Below are positions 38,411 to 41,690 of a stretch of 41,690 nt of DNA, piece by piece; within the stretch, counting starts at the first letter, position 1; the number at the start of each line of letters is the position of its first letter. Both the position numbers and the translations under genes were made by a program. The notes under the pieces were generated by a model. The model did not search any database. It had not been told where the DNA came from and was given only the letters and a program-made list of their open reading frames with translations. The stretch comes from Thalassotalea sp. PP2-459 (lineage in GTDB: Bacteria; Pseudomonadota; Gammaproteobacteria; Enterobacterales; Alteromonadaceae), in contig NZ_MKQD01000039.1 in assembly GCF_001913705.1 (NCBI RefSeq), positions 1 through 41,690 on the forward strand, in the 5' to 3' direction.

Positions 38411-39262
38411 ATGAAACAATATTTAGCGTTATGTAAAAACATTATCGAACAAGGGCAGTGGGTAACGAATGAGCGCACAGGTAAAAAGTGCTTAACGTTG
38501 ATCAACGCAGATTTAGAGTACGATGTGGCTGGTAATAAATTTCCGCTAATTACAACACGAAAAAGTTTTTATAAAGCCGCCATCGCTGAATTGCTTGGTT
38601 ATTTACGTGGTTACAGTAACGCGGCACAATTTCGTGAAATAGGCTGTAACACCTGGAACGCCAATGCAAATGATAATGACGCCTGGTTGAATAACCCTTA
38701 TCGCAAAGGTGAAGATGATATGGGTAGGGTTTATGGTGTGCAAGGACGTGCATGGCAAAAGCCTGACGGTACCCCGTTAGATCAGCTTAAAAAAGTGGTT
38801 GATAACCTTGCTAACGGTATTGATGATCGTGGTGAAATTATTACCTTTTATAATCCTGGAGAATTTGATTTAGGTTGTTTACGCCCTTGTATGCATACTC
38901 ACACCTTTTCTTTGTTAGGTGATACGCTTTATTTAACCAGTTACCAACGTTCGTGCGATGTGCCGCTGGGTTTAAACTTCAATCAAGTTCAAGTATTTAC
39001 CTTTTTAGCGTTAATGGCACAAATTACTGGTCATAAACCTGGTAAGGCTTACCATAAAATAGTCAATGCGCATATTTATGAAGATCAACTGCCGTTACTA
39101 CGTGACGTACAATTAACCAGAGAACCGTTTGCTTCACCGCAGCTTGAAATTAATCCTGATATTAAATCGTTAAAAGATTTGGAAACATGGGTAACAACGG
39201 ACGACTTTACGGTTAAAGGCTATCAACATCATGAAGCCATCGCTTACCCTTTTAGTGTTTAA
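38411..39262 (+). CDS. thyA: Thymidylate synthase
   Basis: Makes dTMP from dUMP with methylene-THF. 283 residues. The catalytic Cys is Cys160 in [16 protein letters not shown], and [14 protein letters not shown] carries the dUMP-binding Arg; HIYEDQL completes the site. The 'RPCMH' form and the insert with [19 protein letters not shown] match the Vibrio-type enzyme rather than the 264-residue E. coli one. Confidence 0.97.
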
Positions 39263-39673
39263 CAGCTAAACTCTCTCCATTTTTTATTCACTTCACTGAA
39301 AATACAATGTTGGCGATACATAAGGCATTTTAATGCGCTAAATGCCTAGCCAACATTTATACAAGCTTTTTACAATGTTTTTAAATTGCCACCTTTAATT
39401 GTCCATTCTACCTTTGACCCTATCTTCTGAATATGGATTACCGTACTGATTTCTGATGATGAGAAACCAGTATTGCAATCAAGTTGTATGAAGATTTTTC
39501 TGTCAGATTTCATATTAAATGTTTTTCAGGAGATAAGAGCAGCAGACTTGAGTTTACGGTATTCAAAACTACTAATGTCGGCTTAATTAACCGCTCATTC
39601 TCATGGTGTGAATGAGTCAATTAACAAACCAGTATTATTTATTAAAAATGCTGGATACAAGGAGTGTAATATT
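39263..39673. other. Intergenic region between thyA and the bacteriocin-like gene
   Basis: Contains a nested hairpin at 39306-39357 and a smaller one, ctcattc / gaatgag, at 39594-39616. A 32-codon ATG frame near 39488 has no good ribosome site. Composition shifts to more AT-rich here, at the edge of the accessory segment. Otherwise nothing recognisable. Confidence 0.5.
39306..39357. repeat. Nested double hairpin downstream of thyA
   Basis: Outer arms aatgttggc / gccaacatt enclose inner arms ggcattt / aaatgcc, all perfect. No T-run follows. It could be a repeat element (REP/MITE-like), a structured RNA or a non-canonical terminator. Confidence 0.7.
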
Positions 39674-39859
39674 ATGCGTGAATTAAACGTAAATGAAATT
39701 GAACAAGTAGATGGTGGTGTTAGAGGTTTAGGTTGGGGAGCGGTTGGTGCATATTTATATGAGTCAGTAGGCGGAGCAAAAGGAATTAATGATCATCATA
39801 GGAAATCTTGGGCTTCAGCTTCAGCAAGCGCCCGTTATTATTACCGTAAGTTGTTCTAG
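39674..39859 (+). CDS. Double-glycine-leader bacteriocin-like peptide
   Basis: 61 residues. The leader MRELNVNEIEQVDGG is a textbook double-glycine leader: hydrophobic residues in the -4/-7/-12-type register and a GG processing site. The predicted mature part is 46 residues, starts VRGLGWGAVGAYLYESVGGA with glycine-rich small-residue spacing, and ends with a basic aromatic RYYYRKLF. The frame continues upstream to 39608, but AAGGAG nine bases before ATG 39674 fixes the start. No C39-peptidase ABC exporter is in the window. It looks like a class II (lactobin/cerein-type) peptide; activity is not shown. Confidence 0.78.
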   Translation: MRELNVNEIEQVDGGVRGLGWGAVGAYLYESVGGAKGINDHHRKSWASASASARYYYRKLF

Positions 39860-39867
39860 TAGATTAA

Positions 39868-39893
39868 CCCTTCAACTTAAAATTGAGGGGATT
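39868..39893 (+). terminator. Hairpin after the bacteriocin-like gene
   Basis: cccttcaa pairs with ttgagggg (one G-U) across a 7-base loop nine bases after the stop. No T-run follows, so read-through to the next gene is likely; it may stabilise the short message. Confidence 0.4.
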
Positions 39894-39904
39894 AATAGAA
39901 TAAG

Positions 39905-40072
39905 GTGTTTAAATATTTAGTATCTCTTTGTATGTTGATTTTAGCCGTGTACTTCGATGAGAAAATTACCATTTTAAGAAAAGCAGATTTTGTGTTTTTT
40001 TCTTATATATTGGGAGTCTTGCTAAGTTTTATTGCCGCTCTATTTTTGCCTTTGGTATATTCTTTTTTTTAA
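39905..40072 (+). CDS. Small two-helix membrane protein, candidate immunity protein
   Basis: GTG opens a 55-codon frame with two hydrophobic segments (about 4-15 and 32-52) separated by a charged loop, FDEKITILRKADF. Small hydrophobic proteins next to GG-leader peptides are typically immunity proteins. GAGGGG lies upstream at wider than ideal spacing, so the start is uncertain; ATG at codon 10 is an alternative. The frame ends in a run of eight T; a shift there would add a basic 25-30-residue tail. Confidence 0.5.
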   Translation: MFKYLVSLCMLILAVYFDEKITILRKADFVFFSYILGVLLSFIAALFLPLVYSFF

Positions 40073-40272
40073 GAAGGGCAGTTGATTGCTTTAAAAAGAT
40101 CATATGGAATTATTATCGGCTTATTTTTATTCAATTAGAGAATTAAAATTAGTACGGTTAATGATATACAGAAAATGAGTATTAGTTTTACCAGCGGCAG
40201 TGCAGGTATGGTATTTAAACAACTTTAAATCTAATCGACAATATATTCACAATTTTGACAACAGAAGTAATA
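40073..40272. other. AT-rich spacer before the CPBP protease gene
   Basis: Only very short frames are present (for example 24 codons from 40104). One continues the preceding gene if the T8 run slips. No clear gene, terminator or promoter. Confidence 0.4.
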
Positions 40273-41007
40273 ATGAATAGTACACAAACCAAGAACTCAT
40301 TGACGAGTTTATTTAATACATCACTTTGGTTATTAGCTTTATTAATTTTAACGCCAACTGTACTTAGTATTTTTTTTGATATTTACTTTGGTATCCAGCA
40401 AAAGGGTAACTATTCCCTAGAAGCTTTTTATGATTGGATTAATAGTATTCCTGTCTTATTAATATTGTCACTAATATCATCATTAATAAATATATATATA
40501 TTGGTTAAGGCAACACATGGAAATAATTGGACGAAACGACTAGATTATTGGGCTGTTCATTCAATTAATCGCCAAGAGTTAATGAAGTGGTTAGCTGTTG
40601 TTTTTATTTTTGTGTGTGTATCAACATTATTGGGTGTTGTACTAAATCTACCAGCTGAAAATTTTATGCTTGATGTGCAAGCCGCTAATGATGGCTTAGC
40701 TATGTTTGTGCTTATTATCGCCACTACTTCTTTTGTTTTCCCCATTATTGAGGAGTTAATCTTTCGTGGTTGGCTTTATAGCAAAATAAAGCAGACTAAA
40801 CTAGGGGATATTGGAGCATTAGTCATTACTACGTTTATATTTACTGCAATTCATACGAAATATGACAATGTGTCTACTTTAATTTATATATTCTTTTTAG
40901 GTTTATTGTTAGGTTTTGTTCGTTATAAAACCCAAAATACTAGCTATACGATTGTAATTCATATATTGCTTAATAGTTTGGTTATCATTGAATTATTTTA
41001 CTTTTAA
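40273..41007 (+). CDS. CPBP family intramembrane metalloprotease (Abi/CAAX type)
   Basis: 244 residues with about seven membrane segments. The three family motifs are present: E-E-x-x-x-R as Glu160-Glu161 to Arg165 in PIIEELIFRGW, His194 in FTAIHTKY, and His230 in VIHILLNS. In Gram-positive bacteriocin loci CPBP proteins often give self-immunity, and this gene lies 400 bases downstream of a GG-leader peptide. I chose ATG 40273; a longer frame from TTG 40255 has no support. Confidence 0.88.
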   Translation: MNSTQTKNSLTSLFNTSLWLLALLILTPTVLSIFFDIYFGIQQKGNYSLEAFYDWINSIPVLLILSLISSLINIYILVKATHGNNWTKRLDYWAVHSINRQELMKWLAVVFIFVCVSTLLGVVLNLPAENFMLDVQAANDGLAMFVLIIATTSFVFPIIEELIFRGWLYSKIKQTKLGDIGALVITTFIFTAIHTKYDNVSTLIYIFFLGLLLGFVRYKTQNTSYTIVIHILLNSLVIIELFYF

Positions 41008-41266: not shown

Positions 41267-41614
41267 GTGAAATACACATTTGATTTTAGAGGTGAAAAGT
41301 ATACCTTACTAAATTTTTGGTTTAGCGATGTTTCTATTATTCTACTATGTCGCGGTAAAGAAATATTTAGAGTGAATCGCGATAATAACATCATAAAAAT
41401 AAAAGAAAAATTTTCAATTATGACAGATGATGGTGAACTAGTTATCGATACAACTTCAAAAATGTTTAAGGTAGAAATCAAAATAACTGATGATGAAAAT
41501 AATGTAATTCCTATGGAAAAATCAACAATCAGTATATTCAACTTTTTAAGAAGTATTAATGTATCTTGGGATTTATCGTTTAAGAATAAGTGGGCGTGTC
41601 CACTTCCCCATTAA
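41267..41614 (+). pseudogene. Hypothetical gene truncated by an IS3-family insertion
   Basis: GTG start with a strong AGGAGG four bases upstream. The first 108 codons encode a beta-rich hydrophilic protein (MKYTFDFRGEKYTLLNFWF...). From codon 109 the frame reads into the end of the insertion sequence and adds seven foreign residues, WACPLPH, before a stop. The rest of the gene should lie beyond the element, outside the window. No family recognised. By position it may belong to the bacteriocin cassette. Confidence 0.65.
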
Positions 41615-41690
41615 TGACACAGTTCTAAATTAGAATTTTCCAGTTTTTCTCGGTAAACTGCCGGCGGCAGGTTACCCAGACTCTCATGTG
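41591..41690 (-). mobile_element. IS3-family insertion sequence, right end (partial)
   Basis: The element begins at tgggcgtgtccacttcccc, the likely terminal inverted repeat with TG end, and runs off the window. It carries the C terminus of an OrfB-type transposase on the minus strand. Confidence 0.75.
41611..41690 (-). CDS. IS3-family transposase OrfB, C-terminal part (partial)
   Basis: Read on the minus strand, the last 25 residues are HESLGNLPPAVYREK then LENSNLELCH and stop. The HESLG-x-LPP block is the conserved end of IS3-family DDE transposases. The gene is cut by the window edge; its state further upstream is unknown. Confidence 0.85.
   Translation of the reverse strand, partial: HESLGNLPPAVYREKLENSNLELCH

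Follow-up and report, generated by a model that had tools for sequence, protein, structure and literature searches.

A predicted microcin-like cassette with a CPBP protease and a truncated VanZ-like gene in Thalassotalea sp. PP2-459

Three plus-strand genes behind thyA in Thalassotalea sp. PP2-459 raise the question of whether a small peptide, a short membrane ORF and an intramembrane protease form a bacteriocin-like system and, if they do, how the peptide would leave the cell and which protein would protect its producer. The window is the whole stretch of 41,690 nucleotides analysed here, contig C39 of the host genome (G000; 85 contigs, 4.08 Mb). Our reading, which we consider modestly probable, is that of a class II microcin-like cassette with no exporter of its own, in which a VanZ-like immunity gene has decayed and the CPBP protease probably provides immunity; export, antibacterial activity and immunity are predictions of this reading. 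The features of the interval are as follows.

38411-39262: thyA, preceding the peptide, stump and CPBP block
39229-39718, plus strand: 5' module (thyA tail, intergenic region and leader codons), repeated elsewhere by blastn
39659-39664, plus strand: Shine-Dalgarno-like AAGGAG, read directly, 9 bases ahead of the peptide ATG
39674-39859, plus strand: double-glycine (GG) precursor peptide, 61 aa, from ATG to the end of the stop; leader 39674-39718, core 39719-39856
39863-39896, plus strand: hairpin behind the peptide gene, lacking a T run, from folding energy
39905-40072, plus strand: truncated VanZ-like remnant, 55 aa, from GTG to the end of the stop, recognised by comparison with the 114-aa protein of G099
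40273-41007, plus strand: CPBP (Abi/Rce1-like) intramembrane protease, 244 aa (250 aa from an alternative TTG start at 40255), PF02517 E 1.6e-19 plus motifs

The peptide and its truncated neighbour

The precursor consists of a 15-residue leader, MRELNVNEIEQVDGG, and a 46-aa core with 7 Gly. The core, which begins GAYLYESVGGAKGIN, has an average mass of ~5078 Da and a pI of about 10 and is cationic. The leader matches the Gram-negative GG motif M[R/K]ELX3E[I/L]X2[I/V]XG[G/A], which the part of PMC9200625 used here credits to Michiels 2001 and Dirix 2004. It scores E 5.7e-9 in a leader model built from 20 peptides, the window leader being itself among these training rows. Curated family libraries alone would not prove the peptide, which stays below the cut-offs of PF10439 (Bacteriocin_IIc; 16.2 vs 27.1 bits) and TIGR03949 (lactobin A-cerein 7B; 12.2 vs 21.5 bits). 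Compared with the congener G099, the peptide gene carries 9 synonymous and 1 non-synonymous changes (ratio 0.028), and thyA carries 28 and 1 (ratio 0.008). Judged against G099, the precursor is under strong purifying selection; the comparison with the conspecific G066 gives 1 synonymous and 2 non-synonymous changes, too few to show selection. Eight leaders were found in the host genome at E<=0.1, on contigs C39, C45, C67 (four), C41 and C25, and relaxing the threshold to E<=10 adds one weak row (5.9). The motif, the conservation and these further leaders bear out the initial annotation, which had called the ORF a double-glycine-leader peptide with a 46-residue mature part and had proposed a search of the genome for others of its kind. 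Its view that GG leaders are mainly Gram-positive does not stand, since Gram-negative GG leaders and class II microcins have long been described (sections of PMC9200625 and PMC9746304 used here).

The core is 97-100% identical among G000, G066 and G099, and in all three the next genes are the VanZ-like gene, intact or as a stump, and then the CPBP gene. The co-occurrence of the three genes that the initial annotation had proposed to check is thus found in 3/3 genomes with this core. Divergent cores occur in five other genera (G124, G043, G075, G165 and G050), each with a VanZ-like ORF of 116-149 aa directly behind it, and the flanking ORFs that were examined included no recognisable CPBP. The CPBP is therefore not obligatory for the peptide family. 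Peptide relatives with neither of the other two genes had been named as a case against the grouping; these five, with the VanZ-like gene and no recognised CPBP, realise that case in part.

The middle ORF belongs to no family in Pfam or NCBIfam, and when its 55-aa product was searched across the bacterial family, strong hits came from the three known genomes alone, with the next one at E 0.005. At the same place G099 has an intact 114-aa protein from an ATG (L041:10391-10735). The window and G066 have 55 aa and an early stop, and then, slightly further on, lack 98 bp relative to G099. The intact G099 protein was modelled with four helices at a mean pLDDT of 82 (the model has 115 residues, one of them preceding the ATG), and the window retains the stretch of the first two. 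The 55-residue ORF of the initial annotation is accordingly present, while its status as a distinct two-helix membrane protein is not upheld; a separate functional class of "two-helix protein" was rejected, the ORF being a truncated copy of the 114-aa protein.

We name this protein VanZ-like only, since 9/9 scanned stump relatives miss the PF04892 (VanZ) cut-off of 30.1 bits (14.5, 23.0, none, 29.8, 13.9, 20.4, none, none and 20.5 bits). These membrane proteins of 114-149 aa resemble the VanZ family in their sub-threshold similarity and in the invariant columns of six aligned VanZ-like relatives (G..P, YExxQ and FDxxD). They differ from it in a best score of 29.8 bits, in their location behind GG peptides and in the Foldseek result for the model, which has no PDB match at E<=0.001. 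The profile match of the G050 copy extends past its stop, and this copy may be short. In G009, two GG peptides whose cores are of other types are also followed by VanZ-like ORFs; no GG peptide was seen next to three other strong VanZ-like matches (G068, G264 and G088).

Against G099 the stump shows 4 synonymous and 11 non-synonymous changes over 55 codons (ratio 0.75), and the CPBP gene shows 49.5 and 53.5 over 244 codons (ratio 0.25). Together with the 0.028 of the peptide, these ratios indicate that selection maintains the peptide and the CPBP and is relaxed on the middle gene. Against G066 the stump has 0 synonymous and 6 non-synonymous changes, numbers too small to read, and the CPBP has 21 and 19 (ratio 0.23).

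In another account, cognate immunity would come from the VanZ-like protein alone, the CPBP would once have served a different peptide that has since been lost, and the window locus would be a decaying or silent remnant. VanZ-like genes do stand directly behind this core family in G099 and in all five distant relatives, as well as behind the two other peptides of G009, and in G043, G075 and G165 an interrupted peptide ORF is accompanied by a whole VanZ-like ORF, which is the order in which toxin/immunity pairs usually decay. We nevertheless regard this account as improbable, because purifying selection relative to G099 acts on the peptide and the CPBP and not on the stump, and because the CPBP is kept by every one of the three genomes with the window core type.

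The exporter and the operon in the family

C39 peptidases cut GG leaders. The host genome holds one C39 domain, in a 715-aa exporter on contig C16, away from the window locus. The exporter is thus elsewhere in the genome, as the initial annotation had supposed, and the idea that the genome has no C39 exporter anywhere was rejected. The C16 exporter exceeds the cut-offs of PF03412, PF00664 and PF00005, and its catalytic Cys, His and Asp motifs were read by eye as AECGLA, NHFVV and INDPALG. It is adjoined by a HlyD/membrane fusion protein (415-aa ORF, L002:5478-6725; PF13437, 54.2 vs 22.2 bits), and the genome has 16 OEP domain matches (TolC-type channel), two in most of the proteins, with none assigned to this system. 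In an exporter tree of 40 rows (38 different), the C16 exporter falls in a 16-row clade (100/99). Eight of the 16 rows have a leader of the window (MREL) type within 4.5 kb, but none of the four in its nearest subclade (G000, G066, G099 and G021) has one alongside. On this sequence pattern, export of the window peptide by the C16 exporter is plausible.

Two small GG-like ORFs lie behind the C16 exporter (L002:9729-10191). Both are matched in G066 and G099, and the second, whose leader is MTNIDRSQWTKIIGG, has 85% identity to its G099 counterpart. They are probably local substrates, so that the window peptide would be one of several cargoes of this exporter. The separation of the cassette from any exporter of its own, together with the presence of these ORFs at C16, is a counterpoint to our reading.

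If the microcin-like reading is correct, the precursor would be made with its GG leader, the C16 exporter (the only C39-peptidase ABC exporter of the genome) would remove the leader, and the 46-residue cationic core would leave through HlyD and a TolC-type channel, presumably to damage the envelope of close relatives. The membrane gene behind the peptide would be the immunity gene, VanZ-like ancestrally and truncated in the present species, and the CPBP would most likely protect the producer by binding or cutting peptide inserted in its membrane.

The leader type was found in 43/196 genomes of the family at E<=1e-3 and in 71/196 at E<=0.1; in a class-wide draw it was found in 6/369 genomes, two of the six being family members. 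A C39 domain (E<=1e-25) is present in 43/43 leader genomes vs 109/196 overall by hand count, for which the hypergeometric value of 1e-13 is not a true probability because the genomes are related. In the family, leaders of this type stand in operons ordered HlyD, GG peptide, membrane protein, C39 exporter. Among 70 mapped loci, most of them chosen for their leaders, 30 exporters are preceded on the same strand by a GG peptide, and a HlyD-like gene comes before the peptide in 28/30. A membrane protein lies between peptide and exporter in 26/30 operons; it is a CPBP of 151-284 aa in 12 and a 319-aa rhomboid in one. Membrane proteins were called with a simple hydropathy window, HlyD and exporter genes by their resemblance to the C16 proteins.

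Leader-type peptides (n=117) share a mean ungapped identity of 58% over the leader, which is partly by construction since the peptides were selected by leader, and 10% over the following 20 residues. Up to ten GG peptides stand in tandem at one locus (L151:8073-9616, G185), where they lie behind a C39 exporter and several are nearly identical. Two short C-terminal motifs recur across unlike cores, one set in L044, L056, L128, L146 and L153 and another in L043, L045, L046 and L121, the endings resembling DWG..S...D..LAP or MMLAP on the one hand and RYTGGFHG on the other. They may reflect shared targets or receptors.

The CPBP protease and the presumed immunity position

The CPBP passes the PF02517 gathering cut-off (70.4 bits vs 22.4) and, in agreement with the initial annotation, carries all three CPBP motifs, EExxxR, FxxxH and HxxxN, here as EELIFR, FTAIH and HILLN. 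The motif residues are invariant in an 8-row alignment. EExxxR is kept by most peptide-linked CPBPs; among the rows listed, the short ones of L044, L116 and L121 are without it. Since the VanZ-like candidate next to the peptide is truncated, the CPBP is the remaining candidate for a cognate immunity protein. It is odd that the presumed original immunity gene is broken and yet the peptide is conserved, unless the CPBP or another gene protects the cell.

In 20 of the 43 leader genomes, which together have 78 CPBPs, 23 of these proteins are encoded no more than 2.5 kb from a leader; every one is downstream of it on the same strand, against an expected number of about 0.26. Of 42 leader clusters, 21 have such a CPBP. 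The 23 span 9 genera, with 15 in the genus of the window, partly the same loci in related genomes, and 8 in eight other genera. Chance neighbourhood without joint function was rejected on this enrichment; the interval does lie in an accessory island adjoining an IS-like element, as such an explanation would have it, but a 23/78 linkage across nine genera leaves it very improbable.

The window CPBP groups with CPBPs located between peptide and exporter in G057 and G001, which belong to two other genera (SH-aLRT 95 and 90), to which it is 45% and 40% identical, and the orphan cassette may therefore descend from a complete operon. Peptide-linked CPBPs do not form one lineage: in a quick tree there are 10 label changes, of which at least 5 are forced by well-supported branches (7 if L119_11949 is labelled unlinked, 5 if linked; the total is 10 either way), with gains and losses indistinguishable. 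A single specialised CPBP lineage was rejected by these label changes. The tree left out the duplicate loci L203 and L207, L138 as a near but not identical copy of L137, and L157_247, which lies at a contig edge and whose label is doubtful, and the CPBP trees cover part of the 55 unlinked CPBPs (40 small loci, 37 proteins recovered, 4 loci giving none). At a further locus, on contig C46, the CPBP is retained in G000 and G066, and the peptide that G099 and G021 have was not found there in those two genomes; persistence of this kind is as expected of immunity genes. We favour immunity as the role of the CPBP because of its slot, its retention without the peptide and its many separate links, and on sequence comparison the CPBP is a probable immunity protein.

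Rhomboids are also found behind GG peptides. In the 43 leader genomes, 4/109 rhomboids follow a leader at a distance of no more than 2.5 kb (matched by eye), against an expectation of about 0.26 (P 1.5e-4): L042:7930-8892 (G099), L050:6668-7627 (G124), L142:8978-10012 (G065) and G066:C1:3199400. The G124 rhomboid is positioned between the peptide and the C39 exporter. Three rhomboids were inspected and 3/3 pass the Pfam cut-off; GxSG is kept in two and was not seen in the G065 protein. A tentative extension, possible but on balance doubtful, is that Alteromonadaceae protect themselves against microcin-like peptides by intramembrane proteolysis. CPBPs many times and rhomboids a few times, two unrelated protease folds, would have been recruited to the position that follows the precursor and, in complete operons, separates it from the C39 exporter, and would destroy the peptide in the producer's membrane; VanZ-like proteins would be a further, non-proteolytic solution in the same place.

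The position of the CPBP between peptide and exporter in 12 complete operons, and its invariant motif residues in the 8 aligned rows, would also suit a maturation protease for the leader or core rather than an immunity protein. We consider this unlikely. The slot holds no CPBP in 18/30 operons of the same leader type, which disfavours the CPBP as a general leader protease and is also, with the five distant relatives, a counterpoint to its general role in immunity. In addition, C39 already cuts GG leaders, the slot alternates between CPBPs and small non-CPBP membrane proteins, and the CPBP at C46 persists without its peptide.

Alternatively, the peptide might be a secreted signal, a pheromone, which the CPBP processes or senses. 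The model for this is SilX of Streptococcus anginosus, a CAAX protease beside a bacteriocin that the part of PMC9298176 used here ties to the quorum-sensing signal SilCR and not to immunity. According to the same part, deletion of SilX abolished bacteriocin activity, synthetic SilCR restored it, and there was no Angicin sensitivity. SilX is a published warning against assuming immunity for a bacteriocin-linked CAAX protease, and the retention of EExxxR in most peptide-linked CPBPs is consistent with a processing role. The window CPBP is like SilX in lying within a bacteriocin region and differs from it in that no comparable signal system was recognised in the cassette, nor a dedicated receptor gene. 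Hypervariable cores, tandem arrays and an adjacent variable membrane protein form the pattern of toxin and immunity genes, and we judge the signal explanation rather improbable.

Known systems and island context

As a type of system, class II microcins and Gram-negative GG leaders are already known. Class II microcins of Enterobacterales comprise a GG precursor, an immunity protein, a C39 ABC exporter, a membrane fusion protein and TolC; only ten have been validated, mostly from Escherichia coli, and confirmed immunity proteins have 51-216 aa (sections of PMC9746304 used here). The system described here resembles them in its GG leader, in the C39 exporter with adjacent fusion protein, in that several peptides perhaps depend on one exporter, and in the small membrane protein behind the peptide in most mapped relatives. 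It is unlike them in that CPBPs of 151-284 aa in 12 operons and a 319-aa rhomboid in one occupy the corresponding place, and in that the window cassette is without an adjacent exporter. The pipeline in the same sections of PMC9746304 keeps immunity candidates of 30-250 aa, so the longer CPBPs and the rhomboid would be passed over.

The cassette also resembles Gram-positive class II loci with CPBP/Abi immunity in its GG peptide, in the CPBP downstream and in the retained CPBP motifs, and differs from them in its Gram-negative host, in the HlyD and outer-membrane step, in its MREL-type leader and in that the CPBP of relatives adjoins the exporter. Such CPBP/Abi immunity proteins at Gram-positive loci were reportedly described by Kjos et al. 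in 2010. CPBP-type immunity in Gram-positives is also treated in the introduction of PMC9298176. According to the part of PMC7564069 used here, antiSMASH reported "bacteriocin" clusters in some genomes of Thalassotalea; loci of a similar sort have thus already been noted, though not in detail. A literature search over titles and abstract starts, with few subscription journals, found no Alteromonadaceae GG-peptide locus with a CPBP or rhomboid between peptide and exporter. Nor did this search turn up the repeated placement of CPBPs, a few rhomboids and VanZ-like proteins behind Alteromonadaceae GG precursors. The striking part is the presence of intramembrane proteases in the immunity position, in a leader type that is widespread in a mostly marine family, with a conserved operon and a slot of varied membrane proteins. 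If these proteases do confer immunity, a CPBP-linked mechanism would become testable in a Gram-negative host, and CPBP, rhomboid and VanZ-like solutions could be compared in one operon position.

The 5' module ahead of the window core has copies elsewhere, at 87.8% identity over 493 bp to L038:9070-9558 (G066) and, for its 3' part, at 88.9% over 378 bp to L039 (both by blastn). On contig C45 and in G066 the repeated module (~490 bp) precedes a second GG peptide with a different core, a pattern suggestive of one conserved 5' unit to which varying cores are attached. The region lies unbroken on one contig in G066, and the second GG peptide there, accompanied by a 59-aa two-helix ORF, starts 3.8 kb from the first. 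The window end (41597-41690) matches, at 98.9% identity over 94 bp, an IS-like element of G066 (L038:10045-11236), which carries integrase core domains and is located at a different point in that genome. We take this element to be IS3-like. Since the window ends in IS-like sequence and C45 holds the second peptide, contigs C39 and C45 probably adjoin, and the element is probably why the contig breaks here and the second GG peptide of the island lies on C45.

The synonymous distance of the CPBP gene between G000 and G066 is 0.146, vs 0.029 for thyA, and this excess divergence hints that the CPBP gene was exchanged by recombination. The hairpin between peptide and stump has a folding energy of -12.0 kcal/mol (z -2.1), and its G099 counterpart, changed in sequence, reaches -18.9 (z -3.7); it is perhaps an mRNA stabiliser or attenuator.
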